Shown here piece by piece: positions 2,959-23,757 of a DNA stretch of 24,624 nt; the first letter of the stretch is position 1, and every line of letters starts with the position of its first letter. The notes beneath the pieces were generated by a model. It was not told the origin of the DNA. It did not search any database and was given only the letters and a program-made list of their open reading frames with translations. The stretch lies in contig CANHSW010000002.1 of NCBI GenBank assembly GCA_947463165.1, positions 1 to 24,624 on the forward strand, given 5' to 3'. Source of the DNA: Cyanobacteriota bacterium. Lineage in GTDB: Bacteria; Cyanobacteriota; Cyanobacteriia; PCC-6307; Cyanobiaceae. The position numbers were made by a program, and so were the translations under genes.

Positions 2959-3012
2959 AACAAAAAGACAGCGAACAAAGACAGCGAACAAAAGCGGTGA
3001 ACAAAGACAGCG
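2959..3012. repeat. Tandem array, 13-bp unit, 4 copies
   Basis: Three contiguous 13-bp units begin at 2974, 2987 and 3000 (consensus AACAAAGACAGCG; the first and third are identical), preceded by a 15-bp version at 2959 with two extra A. The array fills most of the gap between grrM and the next gene. There are no spacers. Confidence 0.85.
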
Positions 3013-3100
3013 AAAGCAGCTTCTGTGCGGCCAACCCCAGCCGCGGATCCGGGTACTGAGGCGGAGAGCTTACGATCGGTCCAAGCCCAGAGCTCACGCC

Positions 3101-3343
3101 ATGGAGTCCAAGCCCACCTCCGTCCAGCACGCACCCACCCTGGATGCGATCCAGCTGATGCTGCGTGATCTGCACACCCGCCACGAGGAGATTCGCCACA
3201 AGGCGGCCTTCCGCGGCTGCACCCGAGAGCTGTTGGAAGTGCAGCAGGAACTGGTCGACTACCTGCTCACCAAAAAGAGCAACCTGATGGGCCAGGAAGC
3301 CTCGGGCATTGCCCCGAAGCGGAACTACAACTCTTTTGTCTGA
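3101..3343 (+). CDS. Small unknown protein (80 aa)
   Basis: Unrecognised 80-aa soluble protein, predicted mostly alpha-helical. Residues about 14-60 are rich in Leu, Arg, Glu and Gln with no long hydrophobic run, and there is one Cys in RGCTRE. No signal peptide or known motif was found. Codon use is like that of neighbouring genes, which supports a real gene. The start is ATG 3101, preceded by GAGC rather than a strong ribosome binding site. The last codons (Phe-Val-stop) fall inside the first unit of a 17-bp tandem array, so the C-terminus and stop may have been shaped by the repeat. It stands between grrM and the FAD monooxygenase gene, both on the same strand, but the gaps on each side are repeat-filled and co-transcription is uncertain. 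Confidence 0.62.
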   Translation: MESKPTSVQHAPTLDAIQLMLRDLHTRHEEIRHKAAFRGCTRELLEVQQELVDYLLTKKSNLMGQEASGIAPKRNYNSFV

Positions 3344-3437
3344 GCCCCTGGCTTGTCTGAGCCCCTGGTTTTTTTGAGCCACTGGTTTTTTTGAGCTACT
3401 GGCTTGTCTGAGCTACTGGTTTGCCTGAGCCGCTGGC
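3336..3437. repeat. Tandem array, 17-bp unit, 6 copies
   Basis: Six exact-period 17-bp units start at 3336, 3353, 3370, 3387, 3404 and 3421 (consensus TTGTCTGAGCCACTGGT). Every unit carries TGAG followed by a CTGG core. The first unit overlaps the last two codons and TGA stop of the upstream gene. It occupies most of the gap before the FAD monooxygenase gene. Confidence 0.92.
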
Positions 3438-3480
3438 TCTGATCCTTCCCCCGTTCAACGCCATCCTTTCCTGAGCTTTC

Positions 3481-4710
3481 ATGCGAGTAGTGGTGGTGGG
3501 AGCCGGGCCGGCGGGGGCCTCCCTGGCCCTGGCCTTGGCTCGGACTGGCATCGCCACCACGCTGGTGGAAGCGGCCAGCAACTTCGATCGAGAGTTGCGC
3601 GGTGAGGCCCTGATGCCCTCGGGCCTGGAGGCCCTTAGTGCCTTGGGGTTGGCGGCCATTGACGCGGCCGTGCCCCAGAGGGTCCTGGCCGGTTGGGCCG
3701 TGGCCGTGCAGGGCCGTCTGCTGTTCGAACTGGATGAACCGCTCGGGGCCAGCGACGAACCGGCCTGCACCCTGGTCAACCAAACAGCCTGGCTGGAGCG
3801 ACTGCTCTGCCACGCCGCCAGGCCAAGCTCGCTAATGCTGCTAACCGGCCAGCCAGTGAAGCAGCTGTTGCGCGACGACAGCAGCGCAGGCCGCGTCTCG
3901 GGCGTGACCCTGGCCACAGGCGAGCAGCTCCAGGCCGATCTGGTGGTGGCCTGCGATGGCCGAGGCTCCTTACTGAGGCGCCAGGCAGGCCTGGCCCTAA
4001 TCGGCCAGGACAGCCCCATCGATGTGCTCTGGTTTCGCTACGCGGAAACGCCCACAGCGCCGCCCCTGGCCGGCCGCTTCTACACCCTGGTGGGGGATGA
4101 GGGGATCGGCAGCCTGTTTTGCAACGCCAGCGGTGGGGTTCAGCTGGGCTGGGTGATCGATCATCGAGCGCCCACCCCGGTGCGCAGTGCCGCGGAATGG
4201 AGCGCCAGGCTGGCCAGCCAGGCCCCGCCGCCGCTGGCCAGCTGGCTGCTGGCAAATGCGGATTACGTAACCGCTCCGGTGCGGCTGAGCGTGCAGGTGG
4301 GCATGGCCGAACGCTGGTGGCAACCAGGTCTGCTGCTGCTGGGCGATGCGGCCCACCCGATGAGCCCGGTGCGGGCCCAGGGGATCAATGGTGCCCTGCG
4401 GGATGCGGCGGTGGCGGCTCGTCAGCTGATCGAGCTGGCGCAACCCCTGGCCTCAGGCGCCAGCCCGCCGCCGGCAGCGATCGACGCCAGCCTGGCCGCC
4501 ATCGAAGCTGAGCGGCGGCCAGAGGTGAGCCAGCTGCAGATCCTGCAGGCAGAAGAAATGCGTCGCGGCGAACTGCTGCGGCAAACGCCAGCCCTGCGCT
4601 GCCTGCTGGCGGCCACGGCGCCCCTGCTGGGGGGGCTGATTGGCAGGCGCTGGCGCAGCCAGCAGCTACAGCTGAGGCAGGGGATCAATCGCCTGACGGT
4701 GCGGCCATGA
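3481..4710 (+). CDS. FAD-dependent monooxygenase (UbiH/PHBH-like)
   Basis: Flavoprotein of 409 aa of the aromatic-ring hydroxylase/halogenase-like group A monooxygenase superfamily. The N-terminal dinucleotide-binding motif VVVGAGPAGASLALALAR (residues 3-20) is followed by a DG motif (VVACDGRGSLLRR, about 157-169) and the FAD-ribityl motif LLLLGDAAHPMSPVRAQGIN (about 282-301). These are the three hallmarks of the superfamily. The substrate cannot be deduced: an aromatic compound, a quinone precursor or a carotenoid-like lipid are all possible. It starts at ATG 3481 just after a repeat array. Its TGA stop overlaps the ATG of the next gene (ATGA, 4707-4710), so the two are probably translated together. 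Confidence 0.85.
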   Translation: MRVVVVGAGPAGASLALALARTGIATTLVEAASNFDRELRGEALMPSGLEALSALGLAAIDAAVPQRVLAGWAVAVQGRLLFELDEPLGASDEPACTLVNQTAWLERLLCHAARPSSLMLLTGQPVKQLLRDDSSAGRVSGVTLATGEQLQADLVVACDGRGSLLRRQAGLALIGQDSPIDVLWFRYAETPTAPPLAGRFYTLVGDEGIGSLFCNASGGVQLGWVIDHRAPTPVRSAAEWSARLASQAPPPLASWLLANADYVTAPVRLSVQVGMAERWWQPGLLLLGDAAHPMSPVRAQGINGALRDAAVAARQLIELAQPLASGASPPPAAIDASLAAIEAERRPEVSQLQILQAEEMRRGELLRQTPALRCLLAATAPLLGGLIGRRWRSQQLQLRQGINRLTVRP

Positions 4711-5222
4711 TGGGGCTCCATGCACTGCCTGATGCCATGGGCCGCCTCCGCAGCCTCGCCCACCTCTGTTACCGCGGCATGGTCACTGGCTGCCTGGGCA
4801 CTGGCTGCCTGGGCACTGGGGGCCTGGTCACTGGCTGCCTGGTCGCTGGGGGCCTGGCTATGCCCTCCGCGCTGCGGGCCGCCCCGAAAGAGATCAGCTA
4901 TCCCAGCGCTGATCAATGGCGCCAACTACAGCTCACCGTGCTGGAATGCGGCCGCGAGAACACAGCCGCTAGCTGCGATCTGGCCCGCAGCACCGCCGAC
5001 CCGCTGCTGGATCACCCCCAGCTGCCGGCCACCTGCAAAGACACCCTCTGGACGATTCGTGACCAAGCCTTGGTAGCAGCCAGCAATAGCTACGCCCGCC
5101 GCGAAAGGCTCAACAAGGCCGCCAGTGAGTTGATACCGCTCTGCCGCGAACGAATCAGCAGCCCAGCTAAAAACAACAAGCCAGACCAGGGCGGCAAAAC
5201 CAATAACCTGCTCAAATTCTGA
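4707..5222 (+). CDS. Secreted unknown protein with repeat-built signal peptide
   Basis: Unrecognised 171-aa protein, probably exported. Residues 1-25 are a long n-region. The hydrophobic core (about 26-50) consists of five-residue repeats resembling TGCLG, encoded by a 15-bp tandem array (4785-4859). A cleavage site is plausible near LRAA-PKE. The mature part has four spaced Cys (ECG, SCD, TCK, LCR), which could form disulfides in the periplasm, and a Lys/Asn-rich tail. The start ATG overlaps the stop of the FAD monooxygenase gene by 4 bases, so the pair is likely co-expressed. An internal start could give a shorter leader. Function unknown. Confidence 0.68.
   Translation: MMGLHALPDAMGRLRSLAHLCYRGMVTGCLGTGCLGTGGLVTGCLVAGGLAMPSALRAAPKEISYPSADQWRQLQLTVLECGRENTAASCDLARSTADPLLDHPQLPATCKDTLWTIRDQALVAASNSYARRERLNKAASELIPLCRERISSPAKNNKPDQGGKTNNLLKF
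4785..4859. repeat. In-frame tandem array, 15-bp unit, 5 copies
   Basis: Five contiguous 15-bp units (4785, 4800, 4815, 4830, 4845; consensus ACTGGCTGCCTGGGC) encode repeats of Thr-Gly-Cys/Gly-Leu-Gly/Val. The first two units are identical. The array builds the hydrophobic core of the signal peptide of the 4707-5222 gene, and the unit length keeps the frame. Confidence 0.88.
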
Positions 5223-5279
5223 TCCCAAGGGCATTCAACAACCCAAGTGATCTCCAGGAACAATTTTCGAGATGCACGA

Positions 5280-5349
5280 GCGACAACGCACTTGAGACAA
5301 CAGGCCTGAGACAATAGGCCTGAGACAATGGGCCTGAGACCAATCATTT
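5280..5349. repeat. Tandem array, 14-bp unit, about 5 copies
   Basis: Three near-identical 14-bp units (GAGACAACAGGCCT type) start at 5294, 5308 and 5322, flanked by one degenerate copy on each side (5280 and 5336). They are contiguous and have no spacers. Confidence 0.85.
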
Positions 5350-5481
5350 CGAAAAACAGTTGCAGCAAAACAGCCCGCCAAATCGCAGCAAGAGGAGTGA
5401 CTCAGCCGCCGCAACGCTTCCTAGACCAAGAAAGTAGCGAGACCAAGAATCTTTTAAGGCGCCACAAATGCAAGCTCAACC

Positions 5482-5614
5482 ATCCAGATATCTTCTTGAT
5501 ATATCCAAGAGGCTTGGATCTAGCTGGACAGCTTGGGGCTAACTTAACGATTTGTATCTATCTAGACGGTTTGGATTTTGCCGGACGGCTTAGGTCTGAC
5601 TAGACGGCCTGTGG
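5482..5614. repeat. Degenerate tandem array, 19-bp unit, about 7 copies
   Basis: A 19-bp period runs from 5482 to 5614 with consensus close to CTAGCTGGACGGCTTGGAT. The copies starting at 5520, 5558, 5577 and 5596 are the most alike; the others are strongly diverged. This is an older-looking array than the 17-bp one. Confidence 0.7.
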
Positions 5615-5713
5615 ACAGGGCCTGCTGGGTAGCCGTTTTCGCCAATCTGCTCAGCAATCGCTTGGGGCGCAGCGGAAGTTTCTGGCCAATTGAGAAAGAA
5701 AATGTGCCTCCGC

Positions 5714-6076
5714 TCAAGCGGGTTGGGCAAGGATGGCCCGTGCCGTGGAATCCATGGTGTCCAGTCGCCAATCACTACTTACCACCGCCCGCTCGGCCAA
5801 TGCGCAGAGGGTGGTTTGGCGTGCCTCGGCCTCACAACTGGCGGAGAGGGCCAGCAGCGCCCCGGTGAGTTTGCCCCGCAGGCAAGCCTCGGCGCCCCGG
5901 CGCTCCAGCACGGCCCTGGCGGCCAGGCGACTGCGCTCCACCGCCTCTAGGTAGGGGACGGGAGCTACAGCGCCCATCACACCCGACAACCCAGCGGAGT
6001 GACAGCCAACTGCCAGCAACAGCGCAAGCAAGCTGATTTGGATAAACCTAGAGGCAAATCGCCTGGGAAAAACCAC
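5714..6076 (-). CDS. Small lipoprotein of unknown function
   Basis: Unrecognised lipoprotein of 120 aa if it starts at GTG 6076. That start gives a good leader: a basic n-region (residues 2-9 contain RR and R), a hydrophobic core LLALLLAVGC, and a lipid-attachable Cys at residue 25. The mature part is helical (YLEAVERSRLAARAVLERR) with Cys in EACLRG, ASCEA and TLCALA. The frame stays open upstream to a TTG at 6328 (204 aa), but that extension is encoded mainly by the 21-bp repeat array and reads as heptads such as VLIFSRR, so it is probably not translated. If it were, the lipobox would be internal. It is convergent with the gene ending at 5222. Confidence 0.6.
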   Translation of the reverse strand: MVFPRRFASRFIQISLLALLLAVGCHSAGLSGVMGAVAPVPYLEAVERSRLAARAVLERRGAEACLRGKLTGALLALSASCEAEARQTTLCALAERAVVSSDWRLDTMDSTARAILAQPA

Positions 6077-6227
6077 AATTCGCCTGGAAAAGATCAAAAC
6101 TCGCCTGGAAAAGATCAAAACTCGCCTGGAAAAGATTACAATTGACTCAACCAAAAGCATTATTCGACCGCCAAAAATTGCAATTTGTTTGTCCAATACC
6201 GCAACTAGCTCAGGAAAGATCATAACT
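6060..6227. repeat. Tandem array, 21-bp unit, 8 copies
   Basis: Four well-conserved 21-bp units start at 6060, 6081, 6102 and 6123 (6081 and 6102 identical), followed by four degenerate units in the same phase to 6227. On the minus strand each conserved unit supplies an AGGCGA element and an open seven-codon frame. The first unit overlaps the start of the lipoprotein gene, so the array may also form its ribosome-binding region. Confidence 0.9.
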
Positions 6228-8322
<2,095 letters not shown>

Positions 8323-8347
8323 TCCAGGGAGTTTGATAGGGCCCGCC

Positions 8348-8629
8348 TCAGCTTTGGTGGGGACCGTCTTTTTCGCCAAGCCGTATTAGGCGGATCTGGC
8401 GCATGATTTCACCCCATGCGCCACAAAATCCAGCTCCGAACAATACAAGCAATACCCCATGCGGTGGAAATGGGGTGAAAAGTTGACCAGGCACCTGGGC
8501 GGCTCGGTTGAGCAGGAGCAATACCACCATCGCCATCAGCATGCAAAGCAGCGCCGAAAAAACGATGCGCCGATTATCTCGACGTAACTGACGACGGGGA
8601 CGATAGCCAGGGGGCTTGGGAAGCGGCAT
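8348..8629 (-). CDS. Small two-helix membrane protein behind the RND pump gene
   Basis: Unrecognised 93-aa protein. The N-terminus is Pro/Arg-rich (PGYRPRRQLRRDNRR), followed by two hydrophobic segments: about residues 24-43 (FSALLCMLMAMVVLLLL) and 59-75 (LLVLFGAGFCGAW). The short loop and Arg-rich flanks suggest both ends face the cytoplasm. It starts at ATG 8629, or GTG 8632, which directly abuts the stop of the RND pump gene, so it is almost surely in the same transcript. A pump accessory role is an inference from position only. It is convergent with pgm. Confidence 0.65.
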   Translation of the reverse strand: MPLPKPPGYRPRRQLRRDNRRIVFSALLCMLMAMVVLLLLNRAAQVPGQLFTPFPPHGVLLVLFGAGFCGAWGEIMRQIRLIRLGEKDGPHQS

Positions 8630-8632
8630 CAC

Positions 8633-11600
8633 TCAAGGCTGGACAGGTTCAGGCAGTACAGGCTCCGTTTGCTTGCTGGCAGGAAACCAGTCAGATTCCA
8701 GATTCTTCATCAGAACATAAAAGGCGGGCACCACAAACAGGCTAGTGACAGTAGCCACCAACAGACCACCAAAGATCACTGAACCAACTGAACGCTGGCT
8801 CATGGCGCCGGCACCATGAGCCACCACTAGCGGGAAGAAACCAGACAAGGCCGCTGAGGCCGTCATCAGGATGGGGCGCAACCGGGATTCAGCCGCCCCC
8901 TTGACAGCCTCTGGAGCTGACAAGCCCGCCTGCATACGCTGATTAGCCAAATCAACAATTAATATGCCATTCTTGGCGGCTAGGCCAATCAGGGTTACCA
9001 GGCCAACTTGTGCATATACGTTGTTGACTTGATGCATAAGCACCAGGAACAGTAGCGCCCCGAGTACGGCCAAAGGCACTGTCATCAGAATAATCATTGG
9101 ATCTATATAGCTGCCATACTGGGCTGAAAGCACCAGATAAACAACAATTATGCCCAGAGCAAATACCACGGCAGCCAGGGAGCCCGCGGCTACTTCAGAT
9201 CGACTCAAAGCAGACCAGGCAAAACCGATGTTAGTGAAACTAATCTTGCTGAATGCAGCCTGCAAAGCCTCGATCGCCTGCCCACTACTCTTGCCAATAT
9301 TTTCCACTCCCTGAATCAGCACCGTGCGATACAAGTTATAGTGGCTAATAATTGGCGGCGCACTATCAAGATTGACTTTTACCACACTGGAGAGGGGGAT
9401 AAGATCGCCGCTGCCGTTAGGTACATAAAGGTTGTCCAGGTCTTGAACTACGTCTCTTTCCGAGCCTTCAGCCTGCACGTAAACCTGTCTATATTGGCCA
9501 TTCTCGTAGGTTTGGTTCACAAAAGTTCCGCCATTAAAAGCTCCCAGCACTTGCATAGCCTTACCAAAGTCAATATCAAGCGAAGCCATGCGATCACGAT
9601 CTGGGATTAGCCTCCATACCGGAGCATCGCTGAGATACTGGGTATAAAGATTGAAGAAATTTCCCGACGCCATGGCCTTTTTCACCAGCTCCCAGGCCAT
9701 GTTATACAGATCAGTGGGGCTATATCCACCATTGCTGAGATCATTAAACTGGAAGGAAAGTCCCCCCTGAGCGCTGAAGCCAGGCACCGCCGCTGGCGGT
9801 GCCGCAAGCACCTTGGCCCCAGGGATCGCCTCAAAGGATTTATTCATCCTTTTAATGATTGCCCCTGCAGATTGCTCCGGGGAATTCCGCTCTTCAATTG
9901 GCTTGAGTCCGAAGAAGAAAACACCTTGATTGAGTGCACCACCATTAAAGCCAAGGCCACCAATCATCTCTCCACTCACCACATCATCTTCCGCCTCTAC
10001 AATCTTTCTGGCTTGAGCAGCCACCTCCATCGTGGCATCAAGTGATGCCTGTGGTGGCAATTGAATGATGCCAAGGCCATAGCCTTGATCCTCAGTGGGC
10101 ACAAAACCAGTGGGAATAGCCGTAAATGCCAACCCGGCGAGCACCACACCAGCCAACAAAACGGCCACCACGATCCTGCGTAGACGGATCACCTGAGCCA
10201 GCAGGCGGGAATAGGTATTGGCAAAACTATCAAATAGTCGGTTGAAACCCCGGAAAATCGGCTGCAAAAATGTACCCAATACTCCGCCCAGCAAGCCAAA
10301 ACCAATGCACCAGGGCCAACCACCAAACAAGTAGCCATAGCCAGCTCCGAAGGCCGCTCCAATCAAAGTCCAAGCGATCCCTTTTGGCTCCGTCTTGCCA
10401 CCTCCAAGCAGCAGAGCTGACTGCAGGGGCTTACCAGAAATGGCATTAAACGTGCTTACAACAATTGAAAATACAATTGTGAGCGCGAACTGGCGATAGA
10501 TCACCCCGGTGGCACCCGGGAAGAAAGTGACTGGTACAAATACCGCCAGCAGCACCAAAGCCGTGGCCAAGATTGCGCCTGTGAGCTCCTTCATTGCATT
10601 AGAAGCAGCGGCAAAGGGCCGTTCACCTGCTTCAATCCTGGCCGAAACGGCCTCAACCACCACAATCGCGTCATCTACCACCAAACCAGTGGCGAGAATG
10701 ATGCCGAGCAGAGTGAGCTCGTTAATAGAAAAACCAAATATTTTTACAAAAATCAGTGCCCCTAGCAGGGCAATTGGCAAGGCCAGGGCTGGCACCATAG
10801 TGGCCTTCCAGTCCTGCAGAAATAAGAATATAATCAATAAAACCAGCACCACCGCATCCCGCAGGGCATCTAAGGCACCCCAGATCGAGGCATTAATGAA
10901 ATCAGTCTGGTCGAACACCTTCTCCAAAACAACCCCTGGCGGCAGGGTCTTCTCAAAGTTTTTGAGCACCACATCAACCTGCTTTGCCGTGTCTATGGCA
11001 TTGCTGCCCGGCAGCTGGATCACACCAAAACCGACACAGGGATAACCGGTTTTAGCATTTATAGCAGCTTGATTAAAATTTTGAAAAGCATATTCAGCCC
11101 TACCTACATCCCCCAGTCGAATTAAGCTGCCATCTGGCCCCTTATCAGACCCCTGCCCACCAGGACCACCGGCTAAAATTAAATTTTCAAATTCATCTAC
11201 AGACTTGAGATTTCCCTCCACCAATATTGGATAGGTGGTTTGATTTTTTGCCGTGGAAGGGGGGCCACCGATAGAGCCACCCACCACTATCTGGTTCTGG
11301 GAGCTAAGGGCATCGGTTACAGCCTGTACGGATAGGTTAAATCGGGCTAGTTTTTGTGGATCCACCCAGAGTCTATAGGCTGGATTGCTACTGCCAAATA
11401 CAGTCACTTGGCCCACCCCAGGAGAGCGAGTTAAGGGGTATGCCAAATTCAGCTGATACAGTCCGTTCAGATAGTTACGATCGAACTGCCCCTCGGTAGA
11501 GGTAATATTGTAAACCTTCAGGTAGCTGCTGGCCGTCTGCTGAACCGACACCCCCTGACTATTAACGCTAGAAGGCAACTGAGCTGAAGCAGTATTAACA

Positions 11601-13130: not shown

Positions 13131-14201
13131 TTAATCCAACCTGACCGACTGGCCGTGGCGCAGATTGATAACGCCGCTGGTGATCACCAGCTCGCCAGGG
13201 GCCAGCCCGCTGAGCAAGGGATAGCGAGTGCCCTGCAGCGGCCCCAGCCGCACGGGGGTCTGCAGGGCAAAGCGGCTGGAGCTGGGCAGTTGGCGCAATT
13301 CCGCCAGGGGAGCCTTGCCCGGTTGGCGCTCCAGGGAAGCCAAATTGCCAACTCGATAAACAAAAGCCTGACCAGCCAGGCTGGTCACCGCAGTGAATGG
13401 CACCGAGGCCTGCCAGGCCTGGTCAAACACCAGCTTGGTTGACAACCTCATCCCTGCCCGCAAGCGGCCCTTGGCATTGGCAAAGGCGGCCTTCACCAGC
13501 AATACCTGGCTGTCCGTACTCACGCCCGGATCGGCGCTCAGCACCGATCCCTGGGCCAACTCGCCGCCGGCGGCATCGAACAACCGCACCAACTGGCCCG
13601 GCCGCAGTCGATCCGCCAGGTGGGCCGGCAGATCGATACGAGCCAAGAGCCGATCGTTACGCAGCAAACTGCCGATCGGACTGCCGGCCTGAATCACGTC
13701 ACCGGGCTTGACCCGCACATCGGCCAAAGTGCCGTCGATCGGGGCGCGCAGTTGCTTGAAGCCCAGATCGGCGCGGCGGGCCACCAGGGCTTCTCGGGCC
13801 GCGATGTAGGTCTGGCGGTACTGGTCGCGGTCGATCGCGCTGGCGGCACCCTGGCGCACGAGTGCCGCATAGCGTTCAAAATTGAGCTGGCTGGTCTGCA
13901 TCTGGGCCTGCAGGCTGGCCACCTCGGCCCGCTGCTGGGTCTGGTCAAGCACCAGCAGCAATTGGCCCCGCTGCACCCGTTCCCCCTGCTGCACCAGCAG
14001 CTGCTGCACCCGACCGCTCGCCTGGGCCGCCAACTGGACACTGGCTGCCGCTTCCAGGGTGCTGACGGTATCCACCCCATCGGCAAAAGGGGCCTTAGCG
14101 ATCACCTCGGTGAGCACCCTGGCCAGGGGCCGCTCCGGCGGCTTAGACCCACAGGCCACCAGCAGCAGGCCCGGCAGCAGCAGTGAAGCAATACGGCGCA
14201 T
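13131..14201 (-). CDS. RND membrane fusion (periplasmic adaptor) lipoprotein 2
   Basis: A second HlyD/AcrA-family adaptor, 356 aa from ATG 14201. That start gives a compact lipoprotein signal (MRRIASLLLPGLLLVACGSK) with Cys17 after the LVA lipobox. The frame is open to 14411, but the extra 70 residues would precede the signal and run through the inverted repeat, so they are rejected. The family pattern is clear: a lipoyl half motif (AQASGRVQQLLVQQGERVQRGQ), a coiled helical hairpin with LDQTQQRAEVASLQAQMQTS, then RAPIDGTLADVRVKPGDVIQ. It lies 77 bases upstream of adaptor 1 on the same strand and is likely the first gene of the pump operon. GC content appears far higher than in adaptor 1 and the pump gene. 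Confidence 0.88.
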   Translation of the reverse strand: MRRIASLLLPGLLLVACGSKPPERPLARVLTEVIAKAPFADGVDTVSTLEAAASVQLAAQASGRVQQLLVQQGERVQRGQLLLVLDQTQQRAEVASLQAQMQTSQLNFERYAALVRQGAASAIDRDQYRQTYIAAREALVARRADLGFKQLRAPIDGTLADVRVKPGDVIQAGSPIGSLLRNDRLLARIDLPAHLADRLRPGQLVRLFDAAGGELAQGSVLSADPGVSTDSQVLLVKAAFANAKGRLRAGMRLSTKLVFDQAWQASVPFTAVTSLAGQAFVYRVGNLASLERQPGKAPLAELRQLPSSSRFALQTPVRLGPLQGTRYPLLSGLAPGELVITSGVINLRHGQSVRLD

Positions 14202-14301: not shown

Positions 14302-14316
14302 CTTTCGGGGGTGCCC

Positions 14317-16638: not shown

Positions 16639-16668
16639 GGGCAACCACTCCAGCTCAACTAAGACAAC

Positions 16669-17502
16669 TCACCAAAGACCGCGAACCGGCTGTTGTGGCA
16701 TGGGCTGGGCGGGACGGGCCTGGGCCACCGGCTCGAGCACCTGGTTGGCTTGAATGCAGGCCGGCAGGAATACGTACCACGAGAACAGCGAGGTGCACTG
16801 GCCGGTACCGGGCTTACAAGCGCCTTGATCACAGACGTTCTGGGCGCCGGTATAGGTACCGCAAGTGTCGGCCAGGCGCATGTTGGTAGGCAGTTTGGCC
16901 ATGATCGTGGCGGAGGAGATTTGTCCGTCAGCCGCATCGGCCATGATCGCCGAGCGCAGGGCCTGAACGGAGGTGCTAGTCATGCCCCAATAGGGGAAAT
17001 AACTAGTAGTTTGATTCTTCAGAAATTTCACCCCCGCATCGGAATAGAGAAAACGAGACACACCCATTAGATCAACGCTATAGGTCTTGGTCATCCCTTG
17101 GCGCACTTCTTCAGAGGTCCAACCGGAGCGGTACAGCCCACCTTCAAGGCCGCGATCGGTAATTGATCCAGAGCCAAAGAAAGTATTCATAGCTGATTGG
17201 TTGGTGGACCAAACTGCACCACCTGTGTTCCAGCGCACGGGCAGATCGCCCACTTTATCGGATACCATACCTGAAGTATTCATCTGCGGTGGCGGTCCGC
17301 CAACAAAGTCGAATGCCAAGGCAGGCGCCAGAGCGGAAACCGTCAAAGCACCGCCCGCCGCCATACCCGCCAAAAGAATCCTGATCGGACCTGTCACTGG
17401 CAACCTACGCAGCAGAGAATTACCAAGCGTAGACATGGCCGACAGAGACATGACTAGCCGATGCTTAGCAGATAGAGAGTTGATCGCCAGAGGGTTGGTC
17501 AT
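16669..17502 (-). CDS. Secreted DUF1400-like protein without hydrolase domain
   Basis: Exported protein of up to 277 aa. The signal peptide core is ILLAGMAAGGALTVSALA with cleavage near ALA-FDF (about residue 64). The middle part (about 128-215) follows the pattern of DUF1400, a cyanobacterial domain normally placed before an alpha/beta hydrolase: a RQGMTKTYSVDL helix, GVSRFLYSDAGVKFL, then ALRSAIMADAADGQIS and a KLPTNMRL end. The hydrolase domain is absent; instead there is a 60-residue tail with four Cys (TCG, VCD, ACK, QCT) and a Pro-rich end. The N-terminal 45 residues before the signal are unusually long and vaguely repetitive, so ATG 17436 is a possible shorter start. Function unknown; domain match made by eye. 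Confidence 0.6.
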   Translation of the reverse strand: MTNPLAINSLSAKHRLVMSLSAMSTLGNSLLRRLPVTGPIRILLAGMAAGGALTVSALAPALAFDFVGGPPPQMNTSGMVSDKVGDLPVRWNTGGAVWSTNQSAMNTFFGSGSITDRGLEGGLYRSGWTSEEVRQGMTKTYSVDLMGVSRFLYSDAGVKFLKNQTTSYFPYWGMTSTSVQALRSAIMADAADGQISSATIMAKLPTNMRLADTCGTYTGAQNVCDQGACKPGTGQCTSLFSWYVFLPACIQANQVLEPVAQARPAQPMPQQPVRGLW

Positions 17503-17928
17503 GAATGAAAAGTAGCCGCTTCAATGAGGAATCTAGCCAGCTGCAACGCCTCCGCACGATCCATCAAATTTTCGCAGCGAGTTTGATGCATGAGTGGAAC
17601 ATTCAGTTGGCCAAGCAACTTCGTCCAGCCCTAGCGAGTTAGAATAAGTCAACAGCGTGTCTGCATTAATCGTGCAATTCCAGAATCTGCCTGCCTTTCC
17701 AGAATCTGCCTGCCTTTCCAGAATCTGCCTAGCTTTCCAGAATCTGCCTAAATGAACCGCATCTGCCCAGTAGGTGCCGCTTACATCAGCGCTGACTTAA
17801 GTAGGCTGGCTAACTACGGCGTCGATTAGGGCTGCCTGACTTGGTAGCGCCCTTGCCCCTGGGGGATTGGGCGCACACCCTGGCTCCCAGCGGACCACCT
17901 AGGCTCAGGGCACTGTTACCAATGCCCC
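17503..17928. other. Divergent intergenic region with a 19-bp array
   Basis: The gap lies between the minus-strand DUF1400-like gene and the plus-strand PrxQ gene and should contain both promoters. The only clear structure is the tandem array at 17680-17755. No gene or confident promoter boxes were seen. Confidence 0.55.
17680..17755. repeat. Tandem array, 19-bp unit, 4 copies
   Basis: Units of CCAGAATCTGCCTGCCTTT start at 17680, 17699, 17718 and 17737. The first two are identical, and the fourth diverges at its end. A degenerate unit precedes them (17661-17679) and another may follow. Confidence 0.92.
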
Positions 17929-18396
17929 ATGGCCCTAGAGATCGGAGATGCCGCCCCAGCCTTCAGCCTGCCCGACCAGGACGGCCAAGTGGTCAACCTC
18001 GCCGACTTGGTAGGACAGCGGGTAGTGATTTATTTTTATCCCAAAGATGACACGCCTGGCTGTACCAAGGAGGCCTGCAATTTTCGTGATCAGTGGAACG
18101 CCTTCAAACAGCATGGCATCCAGGTGATTGGCATCAGCAAGGACAATGCCGCTAGCCATACCAAGTTCATCGCCAAGTTCAGCCTCCCCTTCCCGCTGCT
18201 CACCGACGCCGAGCCCTGTGCCGTGGCCAGCAGCTACGGCAGCTACGGCCTAAAGAAAATGATGGGTCGTGAATACATGGGAATGATGCGCCACACCTTC
18301 GTGATCGATGCCGAAGGCAAGATAGAAAAAATCTATACCAAAGTAAAATCTGAAACCATGGCCGACGACATCCTCAAGGATCTGGGCCTGGCTTAA
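17929..18396 (+). CDS. bcp: Peroxiredoxin Q / bacterioferritin comigratory protein
   Basis: Thiol peroxidase of 155 aa that reduces hydrogen peroxide and organic peroxides using thioredoxin. The active site TPGCTKEAC has the peroxidatic Cys45 and the resolving Cys50 five residues later, the atypical 2-Cys arrangement of PrxQ. The FYPKDDTPGCT motif and the C-terminal RHTFVID strand are typical. It starts at ATG 17929. Its 3' end overlaps the convergent coaX gene by 23 bases (18374-18396). In a cyanobacterium it would protect against photosynthetic oxidative stress. Confidence 0.96.
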   Translation: MALEIGDAAPAFSLPDQDGQVVNLADLVGQRVVIYFYPKDDTPGCTKEACNFRDQWNAFKQHGIQVIGISKDNAASHTKFIAKFSLPFPLLTDAEPCAVASSYGSYGLKKMMGREYMGMMRHTFVIDAEGKIEKIYTKVKSETMADDILKDLGLA

Positions 18397-19243
18397 GACT
18401 CGCCAAGGTAAGACTCGCCAGGGCATCGAGGGCCAGATTCGGGGCCAACCGCCAAGAGCGGCGCGACGCTTTCAGCAACGGTGCCAACAGGGGGCCATCG
18501 CCGCCGGCGAGCCACAGACTCCATTCATCAACCCCTTTATCAACATATTCATCAACACATTTATCAGCACATTCATCAGCACCTTTATCCACACATTTAT
18601 CAACACATTTACCAGTAGCACTTACATCCGAGTCTGAAGGAATTAAAATTCTTTCCTCGGCTGCGGCATTGAGGGCGGCGGCCAGCCCCCGCAGCACGCC
18701 GGCCTGCATCGCCGCCACCGTGGCCTGGGGCCAGGGATCTGGATCCAGCAGCAATTGCCCAGCCGGAGGGGGCAGGTTGGCGGTGCCGGCGTTCAGGGCC
18801 CGCAACTGCAGGGCGGCGCCAGCCATTAGCCGGCCGCCAACAAACCGCCCGCGGCGATCCACACAGGTGAGGCTCAAGACCGTGCCCGCATCGGCCACCA
18901 GCACCGCCGATCCGGCAGCGGTGCTGCGCCAGGCCTGCCAGCCCACCAATGCCCTGTCTACGCCAAGCCAGGGGGGCAGCCCGGCCAGGGGCACATCAGG
19001 GAGGGTCAGGCGGCGGCTTGGATCCAGGCCAGCCTGGGGGGGCACCGGGCCCACTGCCGCCCAGCCGAGCAGCTGCCGGTCCGCCCAGGCCTGCAGCCGC
19101 GCCAGGCCCGCCGCTGGGCTCTCATCAACATATTCACGAATCCCAGTAGCGGCCTGATAAGCCCAGTGCCAGCGACTAGTGCCAATCAGCAGCCAGCAGT
19201 TCAGATGCCCTCGCCCATCAGGCCGGGCAAGTGAATGCCGCAC
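18374..19243 (-). CDS. coaX: Type III pantothenate kinase with tetrapeptide-repeat insert
   Basis: Catalyses the first step of CoA synthesis, ATP-dependent phosphorylation of pantothenate. The 289-aa protein shows the ASKHA-fold features of CoaX: an N-terminal phosphate loop in degenerate form (LLIGTSRWHWA), the VADAGTVLSLTCVD motif, GGRLMAG, and the C-terminal LWLAGGDG. Before that last motif an insert of about 28 residues repeats the tetrapeptide KCVD (KCVD, KCVD, KGAD, ECAD, KCVD, EYVD, KGVD), encoded by a 12-bp tandem array; this makes the protein longer than usual. GTG 19243 overlaps the end of cysH by 43 bases; a start closer to CWLLIG cannot be excluded, though no in-frame ATG is present there. 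It is convergent and overlapping with bcp. Confidence 0.85.
   Translation of the reverse strand: MRHSLARPDGRGHLNCWLLIGTSRWHWAYQAATGIREYVDESPAAGLARLQAWADRQLLGWAAVGPVPPQAGLDPSRRLTLPDVPLAGLPPWLGVDRALVGWQAWRSTAAGSAVLVADAGTVLSLTCVDRRGRFVGGRLMAGAALQLRALNAGTANLPPPAGQLLLDPDPWPQATVAAMQAGVLRGLAAALNAAAEERILIPSDSDVSATGKCVDKCVDKGADECADKCVDEYVDKGVDEWSLWLAGGDGPLLAPLLKASRRSWRLAPNLALDALASLTLASLKPGPDP
18522..18617. repeat. In-frame tandem array, 12-bp unit, 8 copies, inside coaX
   Basis: Eight contiguous 12-bp units (18522, 18534, 18546, 18558, 18570, 18582, 18594, 18606; plus-strand consensus CATTTATCAACA) encode Lys/Glu-Cys/Gly-Val-Asp tetrapeptides on the minus strand. The AT-rich array stands out from the GC-rich gene around it. 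Confidence 0.93.
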
Positions 19244-20034
19244 TCCTGCTTGAGCCCGCCAAAGCGGGTGGCACGACCGCTGGCTTCCAAGCCATCTGGG
19301 CCGCTGGAGTGCCAGTCCCCCACCGTTGAATAACCCTTCTCAAATAGAGGGTGCTGGGGCAGGTCATGGTCCTGCATATAGTAAAAAATATCCTTATTTG
19401 TCCAATTCAGCAGCGGTCGCAGCGACCAGCGCTGGCGCACCGCCTCAAGGTGCCGCATTCCCTGGCGATGCTCTGTCTGTTGAAGCCGCACACCACTGGC
19501 CCAGCAGGCTACCTGCAGCTCTTCCAGCAGCTGATCGAGCGGTTCCACCTTGCGGATGTAGTTGTAAAGCTCCAGATCTTCCAGCCGACCTGTGTTCCAC
19601 AACTGGCCCCGCAATGCCTCCATCCGCGCCGGGCTGCAGCTGGCTTGGGCCACGTGCAGATCAAGCTTCAATCGATCGCTCAACAGCTCGGCGTATTGGT
19701 AGGTCTCGGGGGGTAGGTAGCCCGTATCCACCCAGATGACGGGCAGCGCAGTGCCGAAACGCTTGGCCACCTCACTGGCCATATGCAGCAATACCGCCGC
19801 CTGAATGCCGAAGCTTGTGGTCATTGCAAAGCGCTCGCCAAAGCGAGTCCTGGCCCAGATCAAGCGCTCCTGGGGGCTCATCGGCTCCAGCTCAGCGCAG
19901 GCGACCGCCTGGTCGAGGGCGCAGTCGTTGCGGTCCTTGGGCAGAGTGGGTAAAAGCGCTGTCGCCATCAAGCCATCATTACCTGCTGCCATCAGCATCT
20001 GGGAAGGGGGCCAGCCCATCTGGTTAGGGTTCAT
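19201..20034 (-). CDS. cysH: Phosphoadenylyl-sulfate (PAPS) reductase
   Basis: Assimilatory sulfate reduction: reduces PAPS to sulfite using thioredoxin. Seen in the 277-aa protein: PP-loop TTSFGIQAAVLLHM, the strand VIWVDTGYLPPETY, KVEPL, and the catalytic Cys265 in KQECGIH near the C-terminus. The extra Cys pairs that bind an iron-sulfur cluster in APS reductases are not evident, which favours the PAPS-type enzyme. The N-terminus is long: ATG 20034 lies only 12 bases from the divergent NDH-2 start and next to its ribosome binding site, and internal ATGs (for example 19968) could be the real start. The stop lies inside the start region of coaX, so the two are probably co-transcribed. Confidence 0.92.
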   Translation of the reverse strand: MNPNQMGWPPSQMLMAAGNDGLMATALLPTLPKDRNDCALDQAVACAELEPMSPQERLIWARTRFGERFAMTTSFGIQAAVLLHMASEVAKRFGTALPVIWVDTGYLPPETYQYAELLSDRLKLDLHVAQASCSPARMEALRGQLWNTGRLEDLELYNYIRKVEPLDQLLEELQVACWASGVRLQQTEHRQGMRHLEAVRQRWSLRPLLNWTNKDIFYYMQDHDLPQHPLFEKGYSTVGDWHSSGPDGLEASGRATRFGGLKQECGIHLPGLMGEGI

Positions 20035-20046
20035 AGAGGCAGTGCG

Positions 20047-21231
20047 GTGACAGCAGGCGTGTCAAAACCTGTGGTAATCGCCGGTGGTGGCTTCGGAGGT
20101 CTCTACACGGCCCTGGCCCTGGCCAGCAAGCGCCATCACCCGCCGATCCTGTTGATCGAACCGGGCGAGCGCTTCCTGTTCTTGCCCCTGCTCTACGAGC
20201 TGCTCAGCGGCGAGCTGCGCAGCTGGGAAATTTGCCCCCGCTACGACGCCCTGCTCGCCGGCCGTGGCGTGGCCTGGCTGCGGGATCGGGTCACGGCGGT
20301 AGACGCCAACAGCCATCAGGTGCACATGGCCAGCGGCCGCAGCCTCCAGTTCAGCCAGCTGGTGCTGGCCACCGGGGGGGGGAATGAAACCTTCGGGGTG
20401 CCCGGGGCCCAGGAGCATGGCCTGTTCTTCCGCACCCTGGCCGATGTGGAGCGCCTGAATCAGCTGGTCGAAACTTTGCGGCAACGACGAGGCGCCCAGC
20501 AGCGCATTGCCATCGTCGGTGCGGGCCCCAGTGGGGTGGAACTGGCCTGCAAGCTGGCCGATCTGCTGGCTGGCGCCGCCACGATCGCCCTGATCGAGCA
20601 GGGACCCACCGCCCTGCCCCAGGCGCGGGCCTTCAACCGGGAGCAGGCCCTGGCCGCATTGCAACGGCGCAATGTGCGCCTGCACACCGCCACGGCGGTG
20701 CAGGCGGTGGAGGCCGATCAATTACGGCTGGCGGGGGGGCAAACCCTGGCGGTGGATGCCACCATCTGGACCGCTGGTCTGCGCCTACAGCCGCCGCCGA
20801 TCAGCCCGGCCGCCGCCAGCGACCGCCGCGGCCGCCTCTGGGTCAGCCCAGAACTGCGACTGCTCCACAGCGCCAATATCTATGCCCTTGGCGATGTGGC
20901 GGCCCTGGCCCCCCAAGCCAGCGACCAGGATCGAGACGATGGGCTTCAGCCCCTGCCCACCACGGCCCAGGTCGCCTTCCAGCAGGCCGAGTGCCTAGCC
21001 AACAACCTGATGCGCGCCGCCGCCGGCGAGCCCCAGGAACCATTCCAGTTCCAGGATCTCGGCGAGATGCTCAGCCTTGGCATCGGCGAGGCCAGCGTCA
21101 CTGGCCAAGGCCTCACCCTGGCTGGTAAACCAGCTTTTCTGCTGCGTCGCCTCGCCTATCTCGCCCGCCTGCCGGGCAGACCCCACCAGCTCAAGGTGGC
21201 GGCCGGCTGGCTGGCCGACTGGGGCCGATGA
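20047..21231 (+). CDS. Type 2 NADH dehydrogenase (NDH-2)
   Basis: Single-subunit, non-proton-pumping NAD(P)H:quinone oxidoreductase of 394 aa at the membrane surface. The N-terminal FAD site is VVIAGGGFGGLYTALALA (about 9-26). An ATGGGNETFGVPG strand follows, then the NADH site IAIVGAGPSGVELACKLADL (about 155-174), and the FAD-ribityl motif IYALGDVAAL (about 278-287). GTG 20047 has AGAGG 7 nt upstream, which supports it over GTG 20059. The stop overlaps the ATG of the HAD gene by 4 bases (ATGA), starting a three-gene operon. Cyanobacterial NDH-2 proteins are thought to sense or balance quinone redox state; that role is inferred. Confidence 0.9.
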   Translation: MTAGVSKPVVIAGGGFGGLYTALALASKRHHPPILLIEPGERFLFLPLLYELLSGELRSWEICPRYDALLAGRGVAWLRDRVTAVDANSHQVHMASGRSLQFSQLVLATGGGNETFGVPGAQEHGLFFRTLADVERLNQLVETLRQRRGAQQRIAIVGAGPSGVELACKLADLLAGAATIALIEQGPTALPQARAFNREQALAALQRRNVRLHTATAVQAVEADQLRLAGGQTLAVDATIWTAGLRLQPPPISPAAASDRRGRLWVSPELRLLHSANIYALGDVAALAPQASDQDRDDGLQPLPTTAQVAFQQAECLANNLMRAAAGEPQEPFQFQDLGEMLSLGIGEASVTGQGLTLAGKPAFLLRRLAYLARLPGRPHQLKVAAGWLADWGR

Positions 21232-21869
21232 AGGCGCCCCGGGCCCTGCTGCTCGATGCCATGGGCACCCTGATCGGCCTGCGCCGTTCGCTGGGCCACA
21301 CCTATGCCGAGCTGGCCGCCAACTTTGGCCTCAGCCTGGAGCCGGCGGCGATCGATCGGGTGTTTCCCCGCATCTACCGCCAGGCACCACCCCTGGCCTT
21401 TCCGGGCCTGGAGGGCAAGCAATTGCGCCAAGCGGAGCTGGACTGGTGGGGGGCCCGCATCGGCGCCTGCCTGGCCGCCACTGGCCAAGTCAAGGCCGAC
21501 GAGCTGCCTGCCGGGCTGGTGGAAAGTCTGTTCGAGCGGTTCGCCGACGCGGCCCTATGGCAGGTGTTTCCGGAGGTGCCGGCCTGTCTGGAGCGTTGGC
21601 GCAGCCGCCCCTTGAAGTTGGCGGTGGTGAGCAACTTCGACAGCCGACTGCCGGTTCTACTGGCCGACCTGGGGCTGGCCGAGGCCCTGGATGCCCTGGT
21701 GATTTCCAGCCAGGTGGGAGCGGCCAAGCCCGATCCAGTGCCCTTCCAGCGGGCCCTCCAAATCCTGGGGCTGGAAGCCCACCAGGTGTGGCACGTGGGG
21801 GACAGCCCGGAAGATGAGCTGGGCGCCCAAGCCGCCGGCATCCGCTGCCTGATGGTGCGCCGCCCTTGA
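21228..21869 (+). CDS. HAD-superfamily hydrolase
   Basis: Cytosolic HAD hydrolase of 213 aa with an alpha-helical cap (type C1). Motif I is LLLDAMGTL (nucleophile Asp10), motif II VVSNFDSRL (Ser), motif III Lys in AAKPDP, and motif IV HVGDSPEDELGAQAAG. In motif I the second, acid/base Asp is Met; haloacid dehalogenases read DAYGT at this point, while phosphatases normally read DxDGT. The substrate and even the reaction class (phosphatase or dehalogenase-like) are therefore open. It is coupled by 4-base overlaps to NDH-2 (ATGA) and hflX (TTGA). Confidence 0.87.
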   Translation: MKAPRALLLDAMGTLIGLRRSLGHTYAELAANFGLSLEPAAIDRVFPRIYRQAPPLAFPGLEGKQLRQAELDWWGARIGACLAATGQVKADELPAGLVESLFERFADAALWQVFPEVPACLERWRSRPLKLAVVSNFDSRLPVLLADLGLAEALDALVISSQVGAAKPDPVPFQRALQILGLEAHQVWHVGDSPEDELGAQAAGIRCLMVRRP

Positions 21870-23611
21870 AGCAGGGCACCCTGGCTGGCCGTACTGCGGG
21901 GCTGCGCCCCTCCCAGCGAAGACGGCTGGAGCAGCTGTGCCATCGCCGCCATCCCCTCGATGGGGCCGCAGATCTGCTCACCCTGCAGCGCCTCGGGGCC
22001 GAAAGTCGCGAGCTGGAACTACCACTCACCCTGGTGGTGGATGGCCGCGGCCTGGCCCGACTGCTGTGGGTGGGCCCCCTGGAGCAGTCGGGCCAACTGC
22101 TGGAAAAGCTGCCCGGCTCCCAACGGCGCCAGGGCAGCGATTGGCGGCTGCTGAGCTGCTGTGGTCGCAGCAAGCAACTGCAACCCGGCCGGCAGGAGGG
22201 AATCGTGGGTCTGGATCTGGCCCCCCAGTTCTGGCTGCGCTTCGCCGACCAGGCCCAGCCGGGCGGCAATTGGCCAGCCCAACTACTCACGGCGGCGGCC
22301 TCGGCGGCAGATCCTTGGCAGCTGCTGGAGCAGGGGGACCTGGCCGGGCTCTGCGAGCGCGATCTACTCAGCCTGGTCGCCGCTCCAGCCACCGCCAGCC
22401 CCGGCAGCAGTGGCCCCGGCAGTGGTAGCCCCGGCAGAAGTGGCAACGATCGGGCAGCCACCAGGCCAGGGGGCGGCAGCGAGCAAGGGCAGCGCCAAAG
22501 CTCAGCGCCCGGGGTGGAGCGGGTGCTGCTGCTGGCCCTCACGCCCGGGGATCGCCAGGCGGCCCAGCGTCTGATCGGCGAGCTGGAGGGGCTGGTGCGC
22601 AGTGCCGGCGCCGAACCGGTGGGCGTGGTGGAACAGCGCCGCAGCCTGATTTCACCCCAGACGATCTGGGGGGAGGGCAAACTCAGCGATGCGGCGCTGG
22701 AGGCAAGGCGCCTGGGCGCCACGCTGGTGGTCACGGACCGGGAACTCACCCCAGTGCAGGCCCGCAACCTGGAGCGGCTACTGGATTTGCCGGTGAGTGA
22801 CCGCAGCGAGCTGATCCTCGACATCTTTGCCCAGCGGGCCGCCAGCGCCGCCGGCAGGCTGCAGGTGGAGCTGGCCCAACTGCGCTATCGCCTGCCTCGG
22901 CTCAGCGGCCGGGGCCTGAGCCTGTCCCGCCAGGGCGGCGGCATCGGCACCCGCGGTCCAGGGGAAACCCAGCTGGAAAAAGATCGCCGCGCCATCGCCC
23001 GCCGCATCGAGCGGCTGCAACGAGACGCCCGGCAGCTGGGCGAACATCGCGAGCGGCTGCGGCGGGGTCGCCAGGGCCTGCGGCGATTTGCCCTGGTGGG
23101 CTACACCAACGCCGGCAAGAGCTCCCTGCTCAACGCCCTCACCCGCGCCAGCGGCGGTGCGCCGGTGTTGGCCGCCAACAAGCTGTTTGCCACCTTGGAT
23201 CCCACCACCCGGCGGCTGGATTTGCCCGATCCCCGGGGGGGGCCATGCGAAACGGCGCTGATCACCGACACGGTGGGCTTCATCCGCGACCTGCCGCCGC
23301 CGCTGGTGGAAGCTTTCCGTTCCACTTTGGAAGAAACCCTGGAGGCCGATGGGCTGCTGATCGTGGTGGATCTGGCCGATCCGGCCTGGCCCGAGCAATG
23401 GCGCACCGTGCACGCCATTCTCGACGAGCTGGGCACCAGCACGCCGCGAAGGCTGCTGGGCAACCAGATCGACCGCTGCCCTGCCGCCGAACTGGAGCGG
23501 GCTCGCAGCCTGGAGCCAGACGTGTTATTTGCCTCTGCCACCGATGGGCTGGGCTTACAGCACCTGCGCCAAGCACTGCGGCACTGGCCCGCTGAGCCGG
23601 CGACCAAATAA
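21866..23611 (+). CDS. hflX: Ribosome-associated GTPase HflX
   Basis: Ribosome-splitting GTPase of 581 aa. Residues 1-190 are an N-terminal extension, then a Gly/Ser/Pro linker built from a 15-bp repeat (about 179-193), then the HflX domain (about 215-400) with SDRSELILDIFAQRA and GGGIGTRGPGETQLE, followed by the G domain: G1 GYTNAGKSSL (412-421), G3 DTVGFI (from 468). The G4 guanine-specificity motif reads NQID (533-536) where NKxD is canonical; I recall this substitution in cyanobacterial HflX, but it was not checked. Typical HflX is about 425 aa, so this is the long form. The start is TTG 21866, overlapping the HAD stop (TTGA). Confidence 0.93.
   Translation: MKQGTLAGRTAGLRPSQRRRLEQLCHRRHPLDGAADLLTLQRLGAESRELELPLTLVVDGRGLARLLWVGPLEQSGQLLEKLPGSQRRQGSDWRLLSCCGRSKQLQPGRQEGIVGLDLAPQFWLRFADQAQPGGNWPAQLLTAAASAADPWQLLEQGDLAGLCERDLLSLVAAPATASPGSSGPGSGSPGRSGNDRAATRPGGGSEQGQRQSSAPGVERVLLLALTPGDRQAAQRLIGELEGLVRSAGAEPVGVVEQRRSLISPQTIWGEGKLSDAALEARRLGATLVVTDRELTPVQARNLERLLDLPVSDRSELILDIFAQRAASAAGRLQVELAQLRYRLPRLSGRGLSLSRQGGGIGTRGPGETQLEKDRRAIARRIERLQRDARQLGEHRERLRRGRQGLRRFALVGYTNAGKSSLLNALTRASGGAPVLAANKLFATLDPTTRRLDLPDPRGGPCETALITDTVGFIRDLPPPLVEAFRSTLEETLEADGLLIVVDLADPAWPEQWRTVHAILDELGTSTPRRLLGNQIDRCPAAELERARSLEPDVLFASATDGLGLQHLRQALRHWPAEPATK
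22399..22443. repeat. In-frame tandem array, 15-bp unit, 3 copies, inside hflX
   Basis: Three contiguous units of CCCCGGCAGCAGTGG type start at 22399, 22414 and 22429. They encode a flexible Ser/Pro/Gly linker between the N-terminal extension and the HflX domain. Confidence 0.8.
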
Positions 23612-23629
23612 CAGGCCGCCAACTACGGG

Positions 23630-23757
23630 GGATGCGAAATAGAATGGGCGTGAAATACAGCAGATGCGAAATGCAGTAGACGTGAAATGCAGGGGGCATG
23701 AAATATAGCGGGCCCGAAATATAGCGAGCATGAAATACAATGGAAACAAAATACAAC
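23630..23757. repeat. Tandem array, 16-bp unit, 8 copies
   Basis: The GAAAT core recurs with exact 16-bp spacing at 23636, 23652, 23668, 23684, 23700, 23716 and 23732, with a variant AAAAT at 23748. The consensus is near GAAATACAGCGGGCAT. Neighbouring units differ at 2-6 positions. Confidence 0.92.

Follow-up and report, generated by a model that had tools for sequence, protein, structure and literature searches.

Dense short tandem arrays, filtered by reading frame, in a lineage of Cyanobiaceae

A stretch of 24,624 nucleotides from a Cyanobacteriota bacterium of the family Cyanobiaceae (assembly GCA_947463165.1, contig CANHSW010000002.1, positions 1 to 24,624; hereafter the window) carries many short tandem arrays, both in genes and in the gaps between them. 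Here, we show that such arrays are dense in samples of this genome and of a close relative, that they are nearly absent from the sampled gaps of a third member of the genus, and that their unit lengths in genes are almost always multiples of three (3n). We lean towards a lineage-specific excess of short tandem duplication, due to raised births or weaker purging and filtered by the reading frame. A first-pass annotation of the window had listed eleven arrays and proposed a continuing process that creates duplications anywhere, with selection removing the frame-breaking ones from genes; on the samples, this interpretation is supported.

Genomes and samples

The window is contig 2 of an assembly designated G000 (2.27 Mb, 332 contigs, 77.7% complete). 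G002 and G001 belong to the same genus, and G020, G007 and G011 served as outgroups in the comparisons of gaps and proteins. G002 is ~93% identical to the window and collinear over its whole length; G001 is more distant (HflX is 88% identical over residues 213–576 and 77% over residues 1–184). Arrays were counted with Tandem Repeats Finder (TRF) at a score of 50 and periods of 10–60. All counts rest on genome samples rather than whole genomes: 379 kb for G000 (its 21 largest contigs) and, for TRF counts, 266 kb for G002 (2 kb thereof counted twice). Four G002 contigs (C64, C119, C97 and C17) were picked for matching pieces of the window and the other 14 by number. Genes were called with a simple in-house caller, which undercalls in the genomes of lower guanine-plus-cytosine (GC) content G051, G006 and G034, where coding fractions are unusable. 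The family survey described below omitted L228 (2,076 bases, G004), and three G118 stretches also stood outside the analysis.

Density and distribution among relatives

Compared with one dinucleotide shuffle each, G000 held 147 arrays vs 4 and G002 held 135 vs 1, so the density is not equal to that of shuffled sequence; equality would, according to the first-pass annotation, have spoken against its reading. This amounts to 3.88 arrays per 10 kb in G000 and 5.08 in G002, compared with 1.05 in G001 and 0.60, 1.00, 0.30, 0.30, 0.10 and 0.20 in six others; 50 kb of Escherichia coli held a single array. One 8–20 kb stretch was surveyed in each of 34 further genomes of the family, and densities ranged from 0 to 5.5 arrays per 10 kb. 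Six of them (G098, G118, G047, G117, G088 and G049) reached at least 3, and G099 gave 1 array in its single 20-kb stretch (0.5 per 10 kb). In G047 and G049 (GC 72–73%), all survey arrays lay outside gaps.

Expressed per 10 kb of gap, gap arrays stand at 8.65 in G000 (77 arrays), 9.92 in G002 (83) and 10.4 in G098 (18, in 120 kb), at 5.0 in G064 (4), 3.3 in G007 (5), 0.8 in G006 (2) and 0.49 in G001 (1), and none were found in the samples of G122, G020, G011, G005 and G034. The combined G000 and G002 rates would predict 18.7 gap arrays in the G001 sample vs the single one seen (Poisson p = 1.5e-7), and 33.8 coding arrays vs the 17 seen (p = 0.001). Gap arrays are denser in the window than elsewhere in the G000 sample (19.3 per 10 kb gap, 7 arrays, vs 8.2, 70 arrays, in the other 20 stretches), and the window-matching G002 contigs are somewhat richer than the number-picked ones (10.5 vs 8.5). 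The contrast nevertheless holds without the window, at 8.2 in those 20 stretches of G000 and 8.5 in the 14 number-picked contigs of G002, with no gap array in seven number-picked G001 contigs (7.9 kb of gap). A second genus is uneven too (G098 10.4, G064 5.0 and G122 0 per 10 kb gap, all small samples). The trait is therefore patchy in the family, with strong contrasts within two genera: the expectation that the density would exceed that of typical relatives stands for most of those sampled, but the excess is not unique to this genome.

Most units bear no relation to one another. A comparison of the non-coding and edge arrays in G000 and G002, limited to pairs of equal period and one shuffle, yields 4 pairs out of 1423 with at least 80% identity, one of which is orthologous, whereas the shuffle yields none; at 70%, the counts are 20 and 12. 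This does not support a transposed satellite family or a dispersed unit. The earlier statement that each array has its own unit stands for most arrays and fails for one, the 17-bp array of the window, which matches 62 bases at 81% identity elsewhere in G002 (C64:11120–11181).

A reading-frame filter

The first-pass annotation had proposed that selection removes frame-breaking arrays from genes. Tabulating unit length modulo three in the G000 and G002 samples bears this out: 98 of 106 coding arrays have 3n units, compared with 71 of 160 gap arrays (Fisher p = 6e-17) and 20 of 35 edge arrays, although a non-3n array that destroyed its gene scores as a gap array, so that the classification depends in part on the outcome. 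In genes, non-3n arrays number 0.156 per 10 kb, compared with 5.15 in gaps (33-fold rarer in genes), while 3n arrays number 1.91 and 4.11 (about twofold rarer). Within the 3n class, the spectrum over 12, 15, 18, 21 and 24 bp does not differ between genes (15, 42, 20, 12 and 5 arrays) and gaps (10, 27, 14, 10 and 7; p = 0.79), as predicted by one process followed by a frame filter. The 3n share of gap arrays exceeds one third (p = 0.004), probably owing to missed coding DNA in the gap class.

The same totals speak against phase-variation (contingency) loci, for which non-3n units in, or at the start of, a reading frame were sought: coding and edge arrays are mostly 3n. This assessment concerns class totals and leaves room for single exceptions.

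Copy-number change between relatives

Between relatives, copy numbers shift by whole units. Of 45 G000 arrays in four contigs, 33 lie inside blocks alignable with G002, and the unit is still recognised there for 27 (at a loose threshold, which may mean little beyond one copy). Nine of the 21 nonzero length differences are exact unit multiples vs 1.3 expected; two pairs of neighbouring arrays among them may reflect one event each.

The clearest series comes from the 4-aa repeat in the type III pantothenate kinase (CoaX), aligned for 21 sequences (the window and 20 of at least 120 relatives). In 16 close sequences (the window and P0001–P0015), the array region measures between 36 and 76 aa, and every one of the 120 pairwise length differences is divisible by 4 aa. 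The five remaining, more distant sequences form a single length class of their own. Two of the close sequences, P0002 and P0006, agree at every aligned site (229 of 229 outside the array and 59 of 59 inside it) and differ by one missing 4-aa unit. Likewise, the window open reading frame (ORF) 4737–5222 and P0121 are identical at 156 of 156 aligned sites, and P0121 has one 5-aa unit fewer (the other 10 gapped positions reflect the start chosen for the window ORF). Both pairs were compared as protein, and such one-unit differences between otherwise identical proteins uphold the claim of a continuing process. Across the relatives of ORF 4737–5222 (P0121–P0128, without a Pfam match), the 5-aa units number from about 1 (P0128) to 5 (the window).

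Growth of gaps and proteins

Relative to G001, both array-rich genomes have longer gaps and more protein inserts. Summed orthologous gaps measure 2813 bp in G000 vs 957 bp in G001 (28 gaps) and 2745 bp in G002 vs 882 bp in G001 (23 gaps), and the coding share by gene calls is 73–77% in G000/G002 vs 89% in G001. Against the outgroups, G000 gaps sum to 1881 vs 945 bp in G020 (18 gaps; median 28.5 vs 44.5 bp), 2661 vs 986 bp in G007 (13) and 380 vs 414 bp in G011 (8). The corresponding sums for G001 are 672 vs 827 bp (15), 147 vs 265 bp (5) and 970 vs 1008 bp (13). By sums, two of the three outgroups thus favour growth on the G000/G002 branch.

Internal protein inserts of at least 4 aa number 20 (317 aa) in G000 vs 6 (27 aa) in G001 over 36 orthologs, and 18 (208 aa) in G002 vs 10 (44 aa) in G001 over 32 orthologs, one of the G002 inserts consisting of unknown residues. 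Compared with G020, G007 and G011, respectively, inserts number 16 vs 16, 17 vs 12 and 11 vs 2 for G000, and 5 vs 14, 5 vs 7 and 10 vs 3 for G001. The outgroup comparisons are mixed for proteins, which may have grown on the G000/G002 branch by tolerated in-frame arrays. Over 52 genes, the ratio of nonsynonymous to synonymous divergence (dN/dS) is 0.119 at a dS of 0.144, which means that purifying selection on proteins is still working and has not relaxed to neutrality.

In G002, MutS2 (L282, G002:C22) carries an in-frame, low-complexity insert of ~64 Ala/Thr/Ser-rich residues with a 15-bp repeat in its ATPase domain, relative to G001; it precedes the Walker B motif. A dispersed intergenic repeat of ~100 bp (L045:797–899) matches at least 29 places in G002 and none among the G001 matches listed. 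The left end of the window (1–70) also matches three of the G002 places, and one copy (C23:44909–45008) sits in the gap orthologous to window position ~13,090, where the window aligns in fragments only.

Birth of arrays and repair genes

In gaps of G000 and G002, DNA self-similarity peaks at lags of 12–21, and a remainder persists after the TRF arrays are masked. Per 10,000, it measures 23–32 at lags 12–17 vs 1.5–1.8 at lags 71–120. G011 and G034 stay at or below 1.5, G001 and G020 reach maxima of 4.4 and 5.6 (one bin each), and peaks in the same range occur in G098 (63), G064 (63, from only 3.4 kb) and G007 (15).

Isolated exact two-copy duplications in G000 and G002 show an upper size edge, as a scan of 12–60 bp returned 20, all of 22 bp or less. 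Starting the scan at 8 bp added duplications of 10 and 11 bp (6 and 7), which softens the lower edge. Homology at the junctions of the 20 duplications is 0 bases in eight, 1–3 in seven and 5–8 in five (mean 2.2 vs 0.72 by chance). In coding DNA, all isolated duplications are 3n (3/3 in G000/G002, 5/5 in G098/G064 and 3/3 in G001), compared with 3 of 14 in G000/G002 gaps. These data fit slippage with or without microhomology, and the filling-in of breaks is a possible route of birth.

Several repair functions were searched for as candidate causes. Loss of a PolA-type 5′ nuclease is rejected, with matches above cut-off in G000, G002 and G001 (114 of 121 genomes), as is loss of MutS1, ExoVII or RecJ, matched in 10 of 10 genomes searched (MutS1 and MutS2 were separated by match scores). 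MutS2 was matched in 9 of 10 genomes and lacked a match in the 77.7% complete G000; as a general explanation it is rejected, since its domain is uninterrupted in the array-rich G098. SbcD is above cut-off in 4 of 19 genomes (G007, G054, G088 and G117), and falls below it in the array-rich G000, G002 and G098 and the array-poor G001, G011 and G122 alike. None of 19 genomes gave a match for Ku.

Alternative explanations

According to the explanation that we favour, tandem duplications of mostly 12 to ~22 bp would have been born (or kept) on the G000/G002 branch at unrelated sites genome-wide, and much more often than in relatives. Births would most likely occur through strand slippage in replication or repair, with few bases of microhomology where present and often none. 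Once born, an array would gain or lose whole units, by slippage or unequal recombination within it, while its copies diverge by substitution. Selection would then purge frame-breaking arrays and tolerate about half of the others, and the tolerated arrays would contribute to the growth of gaps and probably of proteins.

The same arrays could also have accumulated at an ordinary birth rate if purging were weaker (small effective population, little deletion pressure), together with repeats and long gaps. We consider such retention rather unlikely. The gaps are indeed threefold longer than in G001, whose own gaps stay near those of G020, the coding share is reduced, and the dispersed ~100-bp repeat has multiplied as well. 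However, the frame filter is strong, and the dN/dS value shows no collapsed selection (although it was measured for array-rich genomes only). Furthermore, arrays have entered conserved genes too (hflX, coaX and, in G002, mutS2), and random extra DNA would not yield the narrow band of lags and unit lengths. We tentatively infer that supply, and not retention alone, is raised. A different origin of the same size band would be births mostly free of homology: the overhangs (up to ~22 nt) left by staggered nicks or breaks would be filled in before rejoining and thereby duplicated, the length of the stagger setting the band. The eight duplications lacking junction homology and the absence of any above 22 bp agree with this, and small tandem duplications in eukaryotes have been linked to break-end fill-in, according to the available part of that report (PMC8355091). 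Nevertheless, five of the 20 have at least 5 bases of homology vs about 0.6% by chance (estimated from the match rate), classical end joining looks unavailable given the lack of Ku matches, and the 10- and 11-bp duplications blur the lower edge, so we regard this route as unlikely.

A role of the arrays as functional elements (terminators, phase-variation loci or binding arrays for regulators) is very improbable in our judgement. There is a mild excess near stop codons in co-directional gaps (31% vs 20% expected within 50 bp, 64 arrays), but units are mostly unrelated, gap arrays are nearly absent in G001, and coding arrays, being almost all 3n, would not switch genes in and out of frame. Besides, the 134 of 160 gap arrays that could be placed between two called genes show no preference for a gap type (10.4 per 10 kb in tandem, 9.9 in convergent and 10.2 in divergent gaps), and this equal density argues against a placed function. 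An assembly or sequencing artefact, conceivable for a fragmented and incomplete assembly such as G000, is extremely improbable, given that another assembly, that of G002, has the same units at corresponding sites, and that they recur in proteins of several sources.

Some observations weigh against a lineage-specific excess of duplication. No gene explains it, with the PolA-type 5′ nuclease, MutS1, ExoVII and RecJ all found in G000, G002 and G001. Other genera hold gap arrays in small samples (G061 2, G088 2, G054 3, G064 4 and G007 5), which makes the trait graded; the 20-kb samples of G061, G088 and G054 seem elevated too, although the counts are very small. Most arrays are older than the split of G000 and G002 (27 of 33, by the loose threshold mentioned above). 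The even count of inserts between G000 and G020 leaves protein growth on the branch unpolarised, and G002, with its dispersed repeat in at least 29 places, may simply tolerate any extra DNA. Going further than the excess itself, we tentatively put forward, as a possible but doubtful proposal, a heritable mutator state that arose on two or more occasions in the family (in G000/G002 and in G098), which would produce duplications of ~10–22 bp almost anywhere, often free of homology, and would steadily grow gaps and low-complexity inserts of conserved proteins.

New DNA can arise by short tandem duplication, and the scarcity of arrays in most bacterial genomes makes it difficult to observe how, and how often, such duplications are born. 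In the present samples, gap-array density varies more than tenfold between species of the same genus, genes and intergenic DNA share one unit spectrum, and some of the steps are of recent date. If this holds genome-wide, the lineage would be a natural system in which to separate mutation supply from selection, and in which the birth of low-complexity protein segments could be watched.

Arrays of the window

TRF recovers ten of the eleven arrays listed by the first-pass annotation at their unit period (scores 52–130). The remaining one, noted at 5482, is a decayed 19-bp gap array at 5511–5608, absent from TRF even at a score of 30. Its alignment with the 19-bp unit found in the orthologous gap of G002 scores 100, compared with a maximum of 24 in 100 shuffles. 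All eleven are thus supported, and three were overlooked: the coding 15-bp arrays at 411–450 and 1636–1722 and a 17-bp gap array at 6567–6631, upstream of phosphoglucomutase (TRF score 60).

Five arrays lie in coding sequence. On the plus strand, the 411–450 array (2.7 copies, TRF score 45) is in frame in the N-terminal part of a solute-binding protein gene (Pfam SBP_bac_3), and the 1636–1722 array (TRF scores 63–75, equal length in G002) lies in a small Gly-rich ORF (1310–1738). Also on this strand are a 15-bp array at 4780–4857 in a hydrophobic N-terminal segment of ORF 4737–5222 (TRF score 107, G002 30 bp shorter) and a 15-bp array at 22398–22444 within an HflX-type GTPase gene (TRF score 66, G002 30 bp shorter). 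The 12-bp array at 18522–18615, encoding the 4-aa repeat, lies on the minus strand within the pantothenate kinase gene (Pfam Pan_kinase; 18522–18611 by TRF).

Gap arrays begin with a 13-bp array at 2959–3014 (TRF score 74), whose unit also occurs in the orthologous G002 gap, with a 26-bp extra stretch there. The 17-bp array at 3336–3438 (6.1 copies, TRF score 115, G002 17 bp shorter) begins at the stop codon of ORF 3101–3343. A 14-bp array at 5282–5340 (TRF score 82 over 5293–5340) is shorter in G002 by 70 bp, i.e. 5 × 14, and a 21-bp array at 6059–6136 (TRF score 121) has about 1.5 copies there. The unit of the 18-bp array at 6384–6451 (TRF score 52 over 6412–6451) is unrecognised in G002, whose orthologous gap holds a different 18-bp array. 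Further on, a 19-bp array at 17678–17767 has about 4 copies at 96% (TRF score 130 over 17678–17749) and is 57 bp shorter in G002, i.e. 3 × 19. The 16-bp array at 23631–23739 lies 20 bp past the hflX stop (TRF scores 54–82 in overlapping rows); G002 has an identical period and a partly different unit, and the gap measures 31 bp in G001 vs 326 bp here.

The claim that coding arrays in the window are all 3n holds for the others listed, but gene calls put the 21-bp array at 6059 in a gap, upstream of the minus-strand ORF 5714–5977, and a weak, imperfect 22-bp duplication at 13631–13678, in an HlyD-like coding frame and of equal length in G002, is a non-3n exception. At 1259–2925, a radical SAM protein (Pfam PF04055) comes after the Gly-rich ORF, which has N-G-G-F-R repeats. 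We take this pair to resemble a ribosomal peptide and its maturase (GrrA/GrrM).

Comparison with known repeat systems

Bacterial minisatellites, or variable-number tandem repeats (VNTRs), consist of head-to-tail units of 10–100 bp that differ by whole units between close strains, with slippage as the usual explanation; Zhou, Aertsen and Michiels are said to have reviewed them in 2014. The arrays described here share the head-to-tail arrangement of 10–100 bp units (nearly all 12–25 bp) and the whole-unit copy differences between relatives. Unlike usual minisatellites, they stand at about 4–5 per 10 kb sampled, with mostly unrelated units of mostly 12–25 bp, and differ sharply between sister species. 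In the heptamer short tandemly repeated repetitive (STRR) sequences of filamentous cyanobacteria, a 7-bp unit is common to the loci, whereas the window units measure 12–21 bp and are mostly unrelated.

Unique, unrelated satellites scattered through a prokaryote genome were described by Subirana and Messeguer in 2019 (PMC6749651). The available part of that paper also remarks on 3n units in genes, for repeats over 30 nt, and places only 18 of 119 bacteria above 4 satellites per Mb. A rough imitation of its rule, as given there, yields 7 in 379 kb of G000 (18.5 per Mb) and 12 in 307 kb of G002 (39 per Mb), 2 in G098 and 1 in G064, while the 8 other genomes to which it was applied yield none. In freshwater Planctomycetota, a different phylum, the accessible passages tie intergenic tandem repeats often to noncoding deletions between co-existing genotypes, and these passages contain no unit-size band, frame analysis or sister contrast (PMC9426551). 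Within the literature searched, mostly without subscription papers, we found no account of such arrays in this lineage; the nearest, in the part of the paper available, is one sentence on 197 tandem repeats of up to 30 bp in the genome of the related Synechococcus sp. CS-601 (SynAce01) (PMC6337551). Minisatellites as a kind are thus known, as are 3n units in genes, the latter from the portion of PMC6749651 cited above. The density in this lineage, the size band common to coding and intergenic DNA, and the contrast within a genus look new.

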